Positions 12,095-51,384 of a stretch of DNA of 53,506 bases are shown in pieces. A model generated the notes under the pieces. That model did not search any database. It had not been told where the DNA came from and worked only from the letters and a program-made list of their open reading frames with translations. The position numbers and the translations under genes are program-made. This stretch comes from a virus. The stretch lies in IMG/VR virus record IMGVR_UViG_3300044618_002464, positions 1 through 53,506 of that record; one strand, written 5' to 3'. Positions within the stretch are counted from its first letter, which is position 1; each line of letters begins with the position of its first letter.

Positions 12095-13135
12095 TTAAAT
12101 TTTTGATAACCATTGTAAATAAATTTGATGAGATATTTGGGCCATCATAACTGGTGGTACACTCATACCTAATAAATAATATGGCTGTACATTTCCAAAG
12201 TTATAATTTTGTGGGAATGAACTAGCTGTTATTAATTCCTGTGATAATAGCTTTCTAGGTGTTTTATAATGATAAAGTTTGATATCATTGGCTACAATTG
12301 TTGGTAATACTTTGTTTGGTGATACTTTACAATAATTGAAAAAACTGCCTGTTGCATGTGCATCTGAAAAATCTTTACCTGCCATTGTTTTAACCCACAG
12401 TTTCAGTAAAGTATCTGTGATATTTTTGTTGTTATTTTGTATTTCAATATCTTTATAATAAATTGGTTGACAATTAAAATTTAATTCAAGTTTAGGAAAG
12501 TTTAATTTTTTCTGTGAACAGATTATAAACACTCTTTCTCGGCGTTGTGGTAATCCCATTGTTGCACCATTTAACAAAAATACCTGTACATTGTAATCAA
12601 TTTCGTTTAACTTTTTAATTATTTCTGTCAGATATACTTGTGCATTACCAATTAATAAACCTTTTACATTTTCTGCAATAGCAACTTTTGGTTGCAAGAT
12701 TCTAACTGTTTCAATCCATTCAAAAAATAGGTCATCTAATTGTTGCTTTTTTTGACCTTCTTTAAATTGCTTTTCAATTCCCCATGCTTTTTCACGACTT
12801 CCGGCCATTGAGAATGTAGAACACGGCGGTGATCCATCTAATAAATCCAATTCAAATAATTCTGGGTATTGTTGTTTGTTTACTTGTTTGTTAAAGTCTC
12901 TGATATCTTGTACAAATAAATGCTTGGGATTGTGATTTTTTTTATAAATTTCTGCAATCTTTTTATCTAATTCAACACCACCAAGATGATCATATCCAGC
13001 TAATTTATATCCCATTGTACTGCCACCACCACAAACGAATGTCCCAAATACTTTTAAATTGTTTTTAGGTACAGCATTATATTGATCTGACAGTTGCCAC
13101 TTGTAAGCAAATAATGACGATTGATATTTTTTCAT
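12095..13135 (-). CDS. DNA (cytosine-5) methyltransferase (346 aa)
   Basis: The protein methylates cytosine at C5 using S-adenosylmethionine. Motif I is FVCGGGSTMGYKLAGY (33-48), motif IV is GSPPCSTFS (101-109) with catalytic Cys105, motif VI is ENV (155-157) and motif VIII is QRRER (197-201). The target-recognition region follows and motif X-like residues (YYLLGMSVPP) lie near the end. Motif IV has PCS where most have PCQ. No restriction enzyme gene is near, so it is an orphan enzyme likely to protect phage DNA from host restriction. It precedes the packaging genes, an arrangement common with ParB-like genes in phages. Confidence 0.92.
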   Translation of the reverse strand: MKKYQSSLFAYKWQLSDQYNAVPKNNLKVFGTFVCGGGSTMGYKLAGYDHLGGVELDKKIAEIYKKNHNPKHLFVQDIRDFNKQVNKQQYPELFELDLLDGSPPCSTFSMAGSREKAWGIEKQFKEGQKKQQLDDLFFEWIETVRILQPKVAIAENVKGLLIGNAQVYLTEIIKKLNEIDYNVQVFLLNGATMGLPQRRERVFIICSQKKLNFPKLELNFNCQPIYYKDIEIQNNNKNITDTLLKLWVKTMAGKDFSDAHATGSFFNYCKVSPNKVLPTIVANDIKLYHYKTPRKLLSQELITASSFPQNYNFGNVQPYYLLGMSVPPVMMAQISHQIYLQWLSKI

Positions 13136-18536: not shown

Positions 18537-19034
18537 ATGATGAATTTACTAAATGCTGAAAAAATCTTCGGTTTAACAAAAGGTATTTACACTGCAAAAA
18601 ACATAAAAGAAATTTTCAGAAAGTTAGCAAAAGAAAATCACCCAGACAAAGGTGGCAATGTAGAAACAATGCAATTGATAAATCAAGCATACAATGATTT
18701 TTCAAAATATTTTATAAACAATGCTGAATATGTTGTCAAAAATGATCAAGAAAATCACAGCATCAACCTTGAATTCATTAATGAATTAAAGTCAATGACA
18801 GGTATTGTAATTGAAATAGTGAATTATTGGGTATGGTTAACTGGTAATACCTTTGCATATAAAGATCAACTAAAGATTCTTGGTTTTAGATACAGTGGTG
18901 GTAAAAAAGCATGGTATTGGGCTCCTGATCTGTCAGAAAAGAAAAAAAGAGGAACTTTATCATTGAAAAATATTAGAAACAAATATGGTAGCAAAATCAT
19001 TGAAACAGAATCAGCTAAATTATTAACAGCTTAA
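18537..19034 (+). CDS. J-domain (DnaJ-like) protein (165 aa)
   Basis: Residues 1-60 form a J domain: helix II (IKEIFRKLAKENHPDKGG), the HPD tripeptide at 35-37, and helix III (ETMQLINQAYNDFSKYF). J domains stimulate the ATPase of Hsp70/DnaK. The C-terminal part lacks the zinc and peptide-binding domains of DnaJ and instead has WVWLTGNTFAYKDQLKILGF and KKAWYWAP, a module seen in small phage and plasmid J proteins. It probably redirects host DnaK during replication or morphogenesis. The gene has its own promoter P3 and terminator, suggesting high early expression. Confidence 0.88.
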   Translation: MMNLLNAEKIFGLTKGIYTAKNIKEIFRKLAKENHPDKGGNVETMQLINQAYNDFSKYFINNAEYVVKNDQENHSINLEFINELKSMTGIVIEIVNYWVWLTGNTFAYKDQLKILGFRYSGGKKAWYWAPDLSEKKKRGTLSLKNIRNKYGSKIIETESAKLLTA

Positions 19035-19036
19035 TC

Positions 19037-19068
19037 AATTCGGTGGAAATCCACCGAATTAAATTTTT
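19037..19068 (+). terminator. Rho-independent terminator
   Basis: AATTCGGTGG and CCACCGAATT make a perfect 10-bp stem with an AAAT loop (19037-19060). AAATTTTT follows. It starts 2 nt after the J-domain stop. Confidence 0.85.
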
Positions 19069-46718: not shown

Positions 46719-47120
46719 TTAATCCTGTATATTAGACCATGAAAAAGTTACAGATTGATTCTGTGAATCTAACACATCTATAGTAATGTATAAAATATTT
46801 CCTTTTAATACTGGCACTTTTATTTCTATATTCTGAATTGCATTTATATATAACAATGGCTGAAATGCACTTTTTAATATTTGTGTGATAGTATTTTTAT
46901 TCCATTCTGAATAATGTGTTGATTCTAAATATGGAATTAAAAGGCTTTCACTAAATGTACTTGCAACACTATCATAACTTAAAGCAGTAACATATACTTG
47001 AGTTTCTATATCTGGTGCAGTTACTAATTGACCTTCATCATCAATATACATTACCCCATCTTTAATTAATGGTGATTCTGATACTGTTAAGTTGTTTAAT
47101 CCCATTGATAAATTTTGCAT
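46719..47120 (-). CDS. gp46/gp25-like baseplate wedge protein (133 aa)
   Basis: It is directly upstream of baseplate J, the usual place of Mu gp46 or gp25/W. The beta-rich N-terminus (MYIDDEGQLVTAPDIETQVY) and helical 'KNTITQILKSAFQPLLYINA' agree with that family, as does the length. It shares one base (TAATG) with the hub gene stop. Confidence 0.6.
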   Translation of the reverse strand: MQNLSMGLNNLTVSESPLIKDGVMYIDDEGQLVTAPDIETQVYVTALSYDSVASTFSESLLIPYLESTHYSEWNKNTITQILKSAFQPLLYINAIQNIEIKVPVLKGNILYITIDVLDSQNQSVTFSWSNIQD

Positions 47121-48487
47121 TATTTATTATTCCAAATTCCAATTAATGAACCTAAAGGCAATAATGTAAAGTTTAAATAACTACCATCTTGACCATAATG
47201 TCTGTTATATGTTGCTACTATTCCATGTTCCATATCACAATTACCTATATTCATAATGCTCCCCAATAAATTACTTATATCTTCTGGTAAAAATTTATCA
47301 TCTAATGATACTTTACCTATAAAATGATTGTAATCTTTTAATTTATCAGCTAATGAATCTGCTGTCAATAATGCTTGATAATAAGAAAAAGCATTATTTT
47401 GTTTAACATCAGCATTTATGTTTTTCATATATTTATCAGGTTGAGTGTTTATTTGATTTAAAATTGCTTGAAACTCTGCACTGCCAATAATGTTACTACT
47501 TATTTGTGTTGTTTCAATAATTCCACTCCACCAACCTTTATTTTTTAAAGTATATACCCTTGGAAAATATTTTTCACTTGGCGCATATGTCAATATAAAA
47601 ACTTTTGCATCTTCTGCATTTGAAATATCAGGAGATAAAATATTGTAATTACTAATAAACAGTGGCACACTGGTTGCATGTTCAATATATTTATAACCTA
47701 ATAATGCAACATTATCACCTGCTTTAAACTTTGGATTTAGCGCATCATTAAATATACTATTTTGTGTTATATCAACATTGAAAGGAGATAATGTTTTATC
47801 ATCTAATCCTCTAATAATTATTTTACCTGATTCATTTTGATATATCACAACATTCATACACTTTAAAGATGATCTTAAAACTTCATCTCTATTAACGCCA
47901 CTAGTTGCTAAAACAAAAGTATCTTTTGATAAATCTTGATAATTGATTTTATCTTGTTCCCAATAATTTTTATAAAAAGTATTATCAATTATTAAATTTA
48001 AAAATTGTTCAGTGTTAACTTTTTGTGCATAATCACTGATCAACATTAATTGTGCATTTAAATTGGTTAACTTTTGAATTTGTTTTATCTGATCTGATGA
48101 AAAAATAAAAGGTATTTTGGTTAATTGAAAGATACTTTGCACCAAAGTTAATATTACTATAGGTCCTGTTTCTGGACTTACTTCATAAGTTACTAAGTCT
48201 ATATTACCTTGAAACACAATAACGCCATTATCTGCAACTTCTACTAACTGACCGCTTCTTAATGTATTCTTTTTTGTTTGGGGTTGATTAAGCCCAAGTA
48301 TTAATAAAGATGGTGTTAAAGATGATGTTAAAGAATAGTTTAAATCACATAATAAAAATTTATATTCTTTAGTTACAGAAACTCCATTAATATAACCATC
48401 GTCTGTGTCATCTGCTGTTAAATTAAATGAATATTCAACATCATTTGCATCATCTAATGGGTATATTAATAATTGTGTTTTTCTCAT
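47120..48487 (-). CDS. Baseplate hub protein, gp44/gpD-like (455 aa)
   Basis: It follows the tape measure/transglycosylase gene and precedes gp46 and J, the position of hub proteins (Mu gp44, P2 gpD). Two beta-barrel-like stretches are visible at 55-110 (GQLVEVADNGVIVFQGNIDL) and 215-330. The middle is helical. It would form the ring that joins tube and spike. Confidence 0.65.
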   Translation of the reverse strand: MRKTQLLIYPLDDANDVEYSFNLTADDTDDGYINGVSVTKEYKFLLCDLNYSLTSSLTPSLLILGLNQPQTKKNTLRSGQLVEVADNGVIVFQGNIDLVTYEVSPETGPIVILTLVQSIFQLTKIPFIFSSDQIKQIQKLTNLNAQLMLISDYAQKVNTEQFLNLIIDNTFYKNYWEQDKINYQDLSKDTFVLATSGVNRDEVLRSSLKCMNVVIYQNESGKIIIRGLDDKTLSPFNVDITQNSIFNDALNPKFKAGDNVALLGYKYIEHATSVPLFISNYNILSPDISNAEDAKVFILTYAPSEKYFPRVYTLKNKGWWSGIIETTQISSNIIGSAEFQAILNQINTQPDKYMKNINADVKQNNAFSYYQALLTADSLADKLKDYNHFIGKVSLDDKFLPEDISNLLGSIMNIGNCDMEHGIVATYNRHYGQDGSYLNFTLLPLGSLIGIWNNK

Positions 48488-48489
48488 AA

Positions 48490-48894
48490 CTATTCTTTAA
48501 AACCTTGTACATATTTTTCTGTGATTTTAGGTAAATGTCTTTTTCCTAGTAAATATTTTGTTAAATTACCAGGTCCCATGTTATAGGCCATTAATCCTAA
48601 AGTGTAATTACCAAATTGATGGGTCAAGTCTTTTAAATAATGAGCACTAACATTTAAATTTTCTTGATAATATTTGGGATTTCCTGCTAAATTATAACTT
48701 ATTTTACTGTATTTATCCCAAACATCTTTACTTACTTGCCCTACTCCTTGAGTATATCCAGTAGGATCGCTTCCTATATTAATATTACCCTTGCTTTCAT
48801 TATACACTAACCTATTAAATGCTTTTGGATTTATATGAAATTTATAGGCTGTACTTAAAACCGCCCCTTGTATGTCTACAGGAGCGGAAAGAAG
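48490..48894 (-). CDS. Lytic transglycosylase (SLT) domain encoded in the -1 frame, fused to tape measure by frameshifting
   Basis: This 134-codon segment has no credible start of its own. A GTG at 48807 would cut off the first helix and has no ribosome binding site. Read from the slippery site it gives LLSAPVDIQGAVLSTAYKFH, then VYNESKGN with catalytic Glu, TQGVGQVSKDVW and LGLMAYNMGPGN, all SLT landmarks. The product cleaves peptidoglycan between MurNAc and GlcNAc. As a C-terminal domain of the tape measure (602 + 134 = 736 aa, Glu about 635) it would be delivered with the tail at infection to open the cell wall. Confidence 0.85.
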   Translation of the reverse strand, partial: LLSAPVDIQGAVLSTAYKFHINPKAFNRLVYNESKGNINIGSDPTGYTQGVGQVSKDVWDKYSKISYNLAGNPKYYQENLNVSAHYLKDLTHQFGNYTLGLMAYNMGPGNLTKYLLGKRHLPKITEKYVQGFKE

Positions 48895-48900
48895 TTTTTT
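48861..48900 (-). promoter_or_regulatory. Programmed -1 ribosomal frameshift signal in the tape measure gene
   Basis: On the mRNA, AAAGGGA (48917-48911) lies 10 nt before A_AAA_AAC (48900-48894, in the correct frame). A 6-nt spacer TTCTTT and a 7-bp stem CCGCTCC/GGGGCGG (48887-48881 with 48867-48861, one G-U) with a 13-nt loop follow. The loop contains the zero-frame stop TAG. This is the same three-part layout as dnaX. The loop TGTA could also pair with TACA at 48853-48850 to form a pseudoknot. Confidence 0.85.
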
Positions 48901-50699
48901 GTTGGGTCTGTCCCTTTAGGGTGTACCATAGGAGACATACCGGTATAACCACCACTACTGCCACCAGAAGATGAACTATTACCACCATTGTCAATAACAG
49001 TAACATGCTGTGCTGATACTTGTAGACTAGATATATCTTTTAAACCTTGTTGTAATGAAGTGATAATATCAACACCTAATTTCTGTGCAACATTTTCACT
49101 TGCATCTAAACCATCATTACTCGGATTTTTAAATACTTGAGCTCTTTCTCTATTTAATGCAATAATTTTTTCTGGTGAAAATCCAAATTTACCGGCAACA
49201 GCTAAATCTAAGCCATAACTATTAATATCTTTAGTATCACCAGACATAAAACTTTGTGCATGTTGTACTAATTCATTTATCTTGTCTGCTTTACCACTTA
49301 ATTTACCAGTTCTTAATGTTGTATTCCAGTCTATACCCATTGCTTGTTTTAATGCTTCATTTCTAGCAAATTGAGAAATATCTTCATTTGCATATTCAGA
49401 TACAGCGCTAGAAATATGAGGATTATATTGTGAGTTATAAGCTAACTCTCTTGATAAATCTTTACTGTATCCTATTGTCATTAAATTTAATGCTGTTTGA
49501 TTTGTTTGTTCAGAATAACCATAACCAAATTTATTACGAGCATCTTTAATATCTTCACTGAAAGATTCCAATGATTTACCAGTAACAATCTGATACTGTG
49601 TTGCTTGAGTAGTTAACTTTGCAAAAGAATCCACAGCAAAACCTGCTTTGGTAAAATTCTGTGCTACTGCTGACAGATTTTCATTTAATGGATTGCTTCC
49701 CATATAAGGAACGATATTATTTAATATTGAATTGTAGTTTAAGTCTGAACCATACTTTTTCTCAAACTGTGCTGACAATGGTGCATTTATAGCTGAACCA
49801 CCAGTTATTTTACTTGATGCTAATTCATAATTGCTTTTATTTAAACCAAAGCGACTAAATCCTGTTGACCATTCAGAAACAGAAGCTGATGCCATTCTTT
49901 CTGATATAGCAGATTTTAAAGCTGTTTCAACTTCTATTTTTTGATTTTTTTCAGCGGCCGACAATGTACCATAACCACCACCCAACAATGCACCGCCATA
50001 TTTACCATATCTTGAACCATACTTTGCCCCTTCATATGTACCAACTGCTAAACCTGGTAAATTCCCAACTGTAAACCCTGCAATACCACCAGTTAACCCA
50101 CCCAAAATACCACCGCCAATACCTCCAACAGTTCCCCATATTCCCTGACTTTTTGCAAGGTTATTAGATATTTGTTGTTCTTTGTTGACAGAATATAAAT
50201 TAGCAATGTATCCATTAAAAGATTGATTTGCATTACCTTTTATTGCTTCTTGAATAAAACCACCTTGACTAGTGGCTCTACCCATGATTGCATTTGCTTC
50301 ATTATTCATGTATCTAGTAGCGGTAACAGTCAAGCCAGTTAATAATGTTGCACCAATTAATTTACCTGTACTTGCACCAATTGATGAAAATATCTGATTA
50401 AATGATTGCTGTTGTTTATTAAGCCAATCCTGAAATACTTGTACCTGTTCATCATTTGGAAAGTCGTTAGGATTACGATCAAATTCAGGATTTCTCGAGT
50501 ATTTTGGCTCTTTATTTGATTCACTGTTTACTGCATTACCTGCTTTATTGTCAAAATTTAAATTCAATTTGTCTATTGATGAATTTAATTTTGATAAAAT
50601 ATCTGCTAAATATTGAAAACTTGCATTATTATTACCTGACATATCAGATATATTATCATCACCACCAACAAATTGAATTTGAATCTTATGATCAGACAT
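48876..50699 (-). CDS. Tape measure-like tail protein, zero-frame product (607 aa)
   Basis: It follows the tail chaperone gene and precedes the hub, the place of tape measure proteins. A polar N-terminus is followed by a hydrophobic segment (106-126) and a Gly-rich, glycine-zipper-like region (186-245, VGGIGGGILGGLTGGIAGFT), as in tape measures that insert into membranes. The rest is helical. It is short for a tape measure, which predicts a short tail. Gly/Ser-rich residues form a linker just before the frameshift site, as expected for a fused domain. Confidence 0.72.
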   Translation of the reverse strand: MSDHKIQIQFVGGDDNISDMSGNNNASFQYLADILSKLNSSIDKLNLNFDNKAGNAVNSESNKEPKYSRNPEFDRNPNDFPNDEQVQVFQDWLNKQQQSFNQIFSSIGASTGKLIGATLLTGLTVTATRYMNNEANAIMGRATSQGGFIQEAIKGNANQSFNGYIANLYSVNKEQQISNNLAKSQGIWGTVGGIGGGILGGLTGGIAGFTVGNLPGLAVGTYEGAKYGSRYGKYGGALLGGGYGTLSAAEKNQKIEVETALKSAISERMASASVSEWSTGFSRFGLNKSNYELASSKITGGSAINAPLSAQFEKKYGSDLNYNSILNNIVPYMGSNPLNENLSAVAQNFTKAGFAVDSFAKLTTQATQYQIVTGKSLESFSEDIKDARNKFGYGYSEQTNQTALNLMTIGYSKDLSRELAYNSQYNPHISSAVSEYANEDISQFARNEALKQAMGIDWNTTLRTGKLSGKADKINELVQHAQSFMSGDTKDINSYGLDLAVAGKFGFSPEKIIALNRERAQVFKNPSNDGLDASENVAQKLGVDIITSLQQGLKDISSLQVSAQHVTVIDNGGNSSSSGGSSGGYTGMSPMVHPKGTDPTKNFFPLL

Positions 50700-50701
50700 T
50701 T

Positions 50702-50863
50702 TTATTTTGTCCTTTCTTGCTCGATTTTATTTACAATTAACTTTAACCACATTAAGTATTCAAAACGGATTGCATCTTCTCTTCCAGGCTTCTGCAAGAG
50801 ATCGCTAATGAACGAGCTATTTGTCGTAAGCTCAATAAGTCTAAGGTATTCAAAAGTTCTGGC
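50702..50863 (-). CDS. Minus-one-frame extension of the tail assembly chaperone (53 aa, GT-like)
   Basis: From the A-run at 50872-50864 the -1 frame stays open for 53 codons (ARTFEYLRLIELTTNSSFIS and on). It stops at TAA 50704-50702, 2 nt before the tape measure ATG. The extension covers the otherwise empty 52 bp after the zero-frame stop. The chaperone product would be 174 + 53 = 227 aa. This corresponds to the lambda G-T protein, which holds tail protein and tape measure together. The overlap region is GC-richer than its surroundings, as two-frame coding would cause. Confidence 0.75.
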   Translation of the reverse strand, partial: ARTFEYLRLIELTTNSSFISDLLQKPGREDAIRFEYLMWLKLIVNKIEQERTK

Positions 50864-51384
50864 TTTTTTTTTACTGCTTTTTCAATATTGATTCTTTCAT
50901 CTTCTGACATCTGTGTTGGTCTAATAGTGCATTCTTTTACCCAGTTAGCATAGATTTCAAATAAATCATTTAACATACCTAATGGCAACCAACCTAAATC
51001 TTCTAATGTTAAAGTTTCTTTGCTTTTTTCTTTTACTGGTGATTTAGTGTTTGCTTTATATAATGTAACAAGCATTTTTCTTAATGAAATTCTAATGTCA
51101 TCTCTTATATTGTTTTCATCACAGAATTTTATAACTTCTGATTCTATATCAAAATTTTCTTGTGCTGATAATATTCTTAATTCAAGCTCTATTCCGTTTA
51201 TTTCAATATTGGTATATGTACCAACACCATATTGAACAAAGTCCAATATCTTATTTAATTTCATTGCTTGAAAAGTTTTATCAAGATCAGTATTTTCAAT
51301 TGGCTTTTCTTTTATATCACTAATTACATTTCTATTATTAGTGGTCATTGCTTGTATTCTTTGTAATTTTTCTTGTCTATCCAT
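50752..51384 (-). CDS. Tail assembly chaperone, zero-frame product (210 aa, G-like)
   Basis: It lies between the tube and tape measure genes, the defining position. Residues 55-110 hold a small alpha/beta domain (IEINGIELELRILSAQENFD), and the second half is helical. The homologue class helps assemble tube subunits on the tape measure and is absent from the virion. The frame contains GTA AAA AAA AAG at 50874-50863, a slippery site for the -1 product. Confidence 0.75.
   Translation of the reverse strand: MDRQEKLQRIQAMTTNNRNVISDIKEKPIENTDLDKTFQAMKLNKILDFVQYGVGTYTNIEINGIELELRILSAQENFDIESEVIKFCDENNIRDDIRISLRKMLVTLYKANTKSPVKEKSKETLTLEDLGWLPLGMLNDLFEIYANWVKECTIRPTQMSEDERINIEKAVKKKPELLNTLDLLSLRQIARSLAISCRSLEEKMQSVLNT
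50863..50872 (-). promoter_or_regulatory. Slippery site for -1 frameshift in the tail chaperone
   Basis: The nine A bases of GTA-AAA-AAA-AAG give A_AAA_AAA and A_AAA_AAG in the correct frame. A_AAA_AAG is the most efficient slippery heptamer in Escherichia coli. No strong stem or Shine-Dalgarno-like stimulator is obvious nearby, unlike the downstream tape measure site. Confidence 0.7.

Follow-up and report, generated by a model that had tools for sequence, protein, structure and literature searches.

A candidate dnaX-like -1 frameshift site at the end of a presumed phage tape measure gene, predicted to add a lytic transglycosylase domain, and analogous cassettes in prophages

We analysed a viral DNA stretch of 53,506 nucleotides (IMG/VR record IMGVR_UViG_3300044618_002464), below called the window, and found a candidate site of programmed -1 frameshifting at the end of a 607-aa ORF, which is presumed to encode the tape measure protein. 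Frameshifting at this site would fuse the protein to a lytic transglycosylase domain encoded in the -1 frame. Programmed -1 frameshifting is the best explanation of the site and, in our assessment, a very probable one. The original prediction of a dnaX-like frameshift is supported by the heptamer, the Shine-Dalgarno (SD)-like sequence and the hairpin at the right spacings, by a complete but start-less SLT domain, and by the codon usage upstream of the only GTG codon that might start it. It is also backed by independent prophages with the same arrangement, covarying hairpins and relatives in which the fusion is in frame.

The proposed mechanism is as follows. The ribosome would pause owing to pairing of the SD-like sequence with the anti-SD and to an 11-bp hairpin, with A_AAA_AAC occupying the P and A sites. 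Some of the ribosomes would re-pair one base back, pass the zero-frame stop codon and add a complete SLT lytic transglycosylase behind a Ser/Gly-rich linker, the predicted fusion product being 736 aa long. The fusion would then be incorporated into the virion. As a minority product it may provide a useful dose, that is, one or a few enzyme domains for a tail tip with room for only few. Frameshifting might set the enzyme dose per virion: by way of illustration, with assumed values of six carrier copies per tail and 20% frameshifting, 74% of virions would have at least one enzyme.

Structure of the candidate frameshift site

The features of the region are listed in Table 1. The overlap of the two frames contains a heptamer of the X_XXY_YYZ type, followed by a downstream structure and preceded by the optional SD-like sequence of the dnaX type.

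Table 1. Features of the candidate frameshift site and adjacent ORFs in the window
Feature	Position	Strand	Comment
Presumed tape measure protein ORF, zero frame, 607 aa	48876..50699	-	identity by gene order only
SD-like AAAGGGA	48911..48917	-	10 nt 5' of heptamer
Slippery heptamer A_AAA_AAC	48894..48900	-	zero frame of 607-aa ORF
Putative stimulatory hairpin, 11 bp, one bulge	48861..48887	-	6 nt 3' of heptamer
Zero-frame stop TAG	48876..48878	-	within hairpin, 15 nt 3' of heptamer
-1 frame ORF (SLT extension)	48490..48915	-	141 codons, 134 after slip
SLT lytic transglycosylase domain	48535..48852	-	PF01464, Pfam residues 22-127
Catalytic Glu codon	48796-48798	-	E40
Sole GTG of -1 frame upstream of active site, judged non-start	48805..48807	-	without clear RBS, would cut domain
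Downstream gene, 455 aa, tail protein of no assigned function	47120..48487	-	packed tightly against -1 ORF

The 607-aa ORF ends with CCT AAA GGG ACA GAC CCA ACA AAA AAC TTC TTT CCG CTC CTG TAG, and its protein product has the C-terminal sequence GTDPTKNFFPLL. The SD-like AAAGGGA, the 10-nt spacer, the in-frame heptamer, the 6-nt spacer and the stem were all noted originally, and all are present at these spacings. The seven GC-rich pairs described then do exist, but they form the base of a longer stem; the complete hairpin has 11 base pairs, one bulged A and a 4-nt loop, with the energy of -16.2 kcal/mol (z-score -4.1; all 200 dinucleotide shuffles fold less well). The zero-frame TAG, previously assigned to the loop, indeed lies within the hairpin, but is partly in the uppermost stem and partly in the loop. 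An Rfam search of the site produced sub-threshold matches only. Many ribosome-binding sites of this phage read AAAGG or AAAAGGA, and thus AAAGGGA is credible as an SD sequence.

The heptamer of dnaX is A_AAA_AAG (PMC5009743). The window heptamer, A_AAA_AAC, is weaker than A_AAA_AAG in E. coli (PMC5009743, PMC4066793). However, it has been assigned as the site of the g-t shift in HCTV-2 (PMC5009743) and is used by a proven IS cluster (PMC4066793).

The predicted tryptic peptide spanning the junction of the fusion is NLLSAPVDIQGAVLSTAYK, and the zero-frame product ends with NFFPLL. Near the C-terminus of the carrier, ahead of the slip site, there is a Ser/Gly-rich stretch (NGGNSSSSGGSSGG) that would be suitable as a linker to an additional, optional domain at the C-terminus.

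Rarity of the signal

We considered all 265 in-frame XXXYYYN heptamers in 65 genes of the window, counting SD sequences at the right position and hairpins with the cut-off <= -8. SD sequences accompany 15 heptamers and hairpins three; the site described here is the only one with both. Among 169 strict in-frame heptamers in the same 65 genes it has the strongest hairpin (-16.2, the next being -12.7). Segments of 30 nt folding at <= -16 kcal/mol occur at two places in this very AT-rich genome, both strands considered, and the frameshift hairpin is the second most stable. The probability of this combination arising by chance in the 13-codon overlap is estimated, roughly, at 3e-6.

A near-perfect inverted repeat at a gene end, TTAATTCGGTGGATTTCCACCGAATTGATT (positions 19033-19062, -16.9 kcal/mol), forms the most stable hairpin detected in the genome. 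It is a candidate terminator or operator.

The SLT extension

The -1 ORF matches the SLT family (PF01464, E-value 6.8e-9). It contains the motifs NESKGN, GVGQ and AYNMGPGN, and retains the invariant residues E40, G57, Q60 and A110-Y111-N112. The AlphaFold (AF2) model, built with 38 aligned SLT sequences, has the pLDDT of 84, and its fold matches Slt/Slt70 transglycosylases in a Foldseek comparison. The Pfam match, the motifs and the Slt70-like model confirm that the -1 frame encodes an SLT domain, as had been proposed. The stop codon of this ORF, TAG, is situated about 2-3 nt ahead of the ATG of the next gene.

Analogous cassettes in prophages

We screened 245 SLT ORFs, from the window and other contigs, for the same anatomy. 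Nine have no common start codon before the domain. Eight of the nine are read in the -1 frame relative to an ORF upstream that has a heptamer; they comprise the window itself, L099/L253, L101/L254, L255, L168 and L256, L253 being one contig with L099 and L254 with L101. The ninth, L106, is near a contig edge. The five non-window phages have a common upstream protein, unrelated to the presumed tape measure of the window, and contain G_GGA_AAC_TGA or G_GGA_AAG_TAG with a hairpin starting 6 nt further on. A GTG codon occurs at the edge of the SLT domain in L099, L101, L255 and L168, where an independent start is possible; L256 has none. A more distant contig (L257, 3261-5408) has an SLT domain in -1 relative to an ORF of 562 aa; its candidate heptamer, C_CCT_TTC, immediately ahead of the stop codon, is weaker.

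The common upstream protein was searched for in 399 class-level genomes and then in 400 genomes of one bacterial family, which belongs to the class Bacilli by the centre used. The resulting family of prophage loci includes L099, L168, L256, L334-L336 and L397-L453. Of the copies with a readable end, 41 are distinct, and 29 of these have an X_XXY_YYZ heptamer directly abutting the stop, together with a -1 extension of 97-209 aa. These heptamers are GGGAAAC (18 copies), GGGAAAG (7), GGGAAAA (2), CCCAAAC (1) and AAAAAAC (1), the last being the heptamer of the window itself. The best hairpin found is separated from the heptamer by exactly 6 nt in 24 of these copies. Across 22 alignable copies a 7-bp stem is kept in 148/148 cells, with four pairs changed on both sides, and the covariation collapses on sliding by one column; as these copies were selected for alignable arms, the result is biased toward structure.

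The -1 extensions tested encode different wall hydrolases, namely SLT (PF01464), glucosaminidase (PF01832) and a VgrG3-like C-terminal muramidase (PF21277, E-value 4e-45). In 18 of 34 cassettes, the stretch from the opening of the -1 frame to 90 nt past the slip has no ATG, GTG or TTG. In L337 the same carrier is fused to SLT in frame, and L446 has SLT-like sequence in frame at its end, as judged by eye. Judging by the gene order and by one neighbour that weakly matches a structural protein, the prophage carriers may be ejected podovirus-type virion proteins.

Several loci deviate from this pattern. In L436 (stop at about 2629) and L426 the zero-frame stop overlaps an ATG of the -1 frame (AUGA), and termination-reinitiation could replace or supplement frameshifting there; these two loci are possible evolutionary intermediates. 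L407 has kept A_AAA_AAC-TGA with a -1 extension of 26 codons only, and the SLT extension of L435 is truncated to 97 aa. Both are possible remnants of the cassette.

Alternative explanations

The arrangement in the window would also result if an error of sequencing or assembly, or a recent indel, had affected the A6 run and split a true in-frame fusion of the tape measure and SLT. The site is seen in one contig only and the break falls at a homopolymer. Moreover, in-frame tape measure-SLT fusions are ordinary, as illustrated by the annotated SPbeta YomI and Geobacillus E3 matches, and the analogous prophage family has in-frame relatives (L337 and L446). However, the presence of an SD-like sequence and of the second most stable hairpin of the genome at canonical spacings would then be a coincidence at the level estimated above, and the same anatomy recurs in unrelated phages. 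Finally, none of 65 checked genes is broken, although 25 late genes contain 66 A/T runs of length at least six; all genes being intact despite so many long runs argues against random homopolymer error. We consider this explanation quite unlikely. The A6 run might also cause slippage of the transcribing polymerase rather than of the ribosome, and the homopolymer is indeed located at the junction. Still, six adenines are a short run for transcriptional slippage, intact genes of the same genome contain longer runs, and neither the SD-like sequence nor the hairpin would be needed; such an origin of the fusion is extremely improbable.

A further possibility is that SLT is a separate gene, started by termination-reinitiation at the GTG at 48807 or at some non-standard codon. 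The original prediction had stated that the domain has neither a start nor a ribosome-binding site. There is no usable start, as the -1 frame contains no ATG, GTG, TTG or CTG 5' of this GTG, but the in-frame GTG itself does exist, although without a clear ribosome-binding site. In two prophage relatives from the analogous family (L436 and L426) an ATG overlaps the zero-frame stop. On the other hand, the GTG is residue 37 of the -1 ORF, three residues ahead of the catalytic Glu; since the model places helices at residues 15-25 and 30-41 with high confidence, initiation here would leave the domain without helix 1 and without most of helix 2. The 29 codons between the slip site and the GTG score +9.4 bits in codon usage, compared to 21+-7.5 for real genes and -20+-8 for wrong frames, and this coding-like usage means that coding begins upstream of the GTG. 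A separate gene is therefore a very improbable reading.

Recoding of TGA was rejected, since no late gene lengthens on TGA read-through and early genes use TGA stops. Among ORFs of at least 130 aa, the leftward ones end with TAA (27), TAG (5) and TGA (0), and the rightward ones with TAA (17), TGA (5) and TAG (1). This pattern indicates a strand-specific avoidance of TGA stops in the late (minus-strand) genes.

Relation to known systems

Like the window site, dnaX (tau/gamma) has an SD-like site 10 nt upstream, an A_AAA_AAN heptamer, a hairpin 5-6 nt downstream and a stop soon after. However, frameshifting in dnaX shortens the product, whereas in the window it would lengthen it by a catalytic domain, and the heptamers end with AAG and AAC, respectively. 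The phage tail chaperones gpG/gpGT also use -1 frameshifting near the end of a tail gene and yield a minor, C-terminally extended product (PMC5009743). These chaperones are not virion components, and their genes precede the tape measure gene, whereas in the window the presumed tape measure itself would gain an enzyme. The tape measures of SPbeta (YomI) and Geobacillus E3 contain an enzyme of the same SLT family, but in every copy, and not in frameshifted copies only, as predicted here. Capsid and tail proteins with frameshifted C-terminal extensions exist, for example, in Listeria phage PSA; there too a virion protein has a minority extended form, but the extensions are structural and are not wall hydrolases. 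The prophage carriers share with the window a candidate -1 frameshift cassette at the carrier end, a hairpin 6 nt on and a wall hydrolase in the -1 frame. In contrast to the window, these carriers are unrelated to the presumed tape measure, and their heptamers are mostly G_GGA_AAC/G abutting the stop, usually without an SD sequence.

No tape measure or virion wall hydrolase made by frameshifting was found in the open literature. False positives of PRFect include lysin and tape-measure hits, the latter of which may be mislabelled chaperones (PMC10885494). The earlier statement that no described tape measure gains its enzyme by frameshifting at the very end holds for the open literature searched, although this phage is not alone in having the device. 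The novelty is in the combination, as both in-frame transglycosylases of tape measures and frameshifted tail proteins are already known.

Overall, the device looks like a general and apparently undescribed strategy. It seems fairly likely that a modular recoding cassette, consisting of a heptamer, a short spacer and a hairpin, has arisen independently in unrelated phages at the end of genes for tail or ejected virion proteins; this cassette would add interchangeable peptidoglycan hydrolases to a minority of copies and set a sub-stoichiometric dose per particle. Virions need wall hydrolases, yet the tail has room for few such enzyme domains, and frameshifting at the 3' end of the carrier gene would provide a built-in mixture of carriers with and without the enzyme. 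Of most interest is that the device recurs, with swapped enzymes, in phages unrelated to each other. Its occurrence in one isolated AT-rich phage and, independently, in dozens of prophages leads to a testable general principle. Gene callers would cut the carrier short and report the enzyme as a gene that has no start or a wrong one.

Identity of the carrier and relatives of the phage

The tentative assignment of the 607-aa carrier as a tape measure is based on gene order. Upstream of it are ORFs of the sheath, tube and chaperone sizes, assigned by size and order only, and downstream are genes for the baseplate wedge (phrog_6) and hub (DNA_circ_N, phrog_184). The carrier has no match to known tape measures in Pfam, PHROGs, NCBIfam or PDB sequences, and the PDB and NCBIfam searches identified no tube, sheath or tape measure protein. 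Because no homology search confirmed its identity, we call it the presumed tape measure. Tape measures are often without detectable homology. The failure of these searches lowers the confidence in the label, but not in the frameshift. No G/GT-like overlapping frameshift ORF was observed at positions 50700-51384, between the chaperone-sized ORF and the presumed tape measure, and the classic tail-chaperone frameshift seems to be absent in this phage.

Relatives were sought by IMG/VR single-protein scans, which reach close relatives only, by a terminase profile and a Walker-A DNA pattern, by tblastn against INPHARED, and in GTDB. Among the matches listed in IMG/VR, INPHARED and GTDB, there were no relatives of the window tape measure, SLT, sheath, terminase or major capsid protein beyond distant similarity, and even this was found for the terminase, portal, methyltransferase and SLT only. 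Among the matches listed there was also no relative of the carrier gene with which its heptamer, SD and stem could be compared. The closest match of any window gene compared is that of a DNA cytosine-type methyltransferase (12095-13135), which is 47% identical to those of Flavobacterium phages and may be a weak hint at the host.
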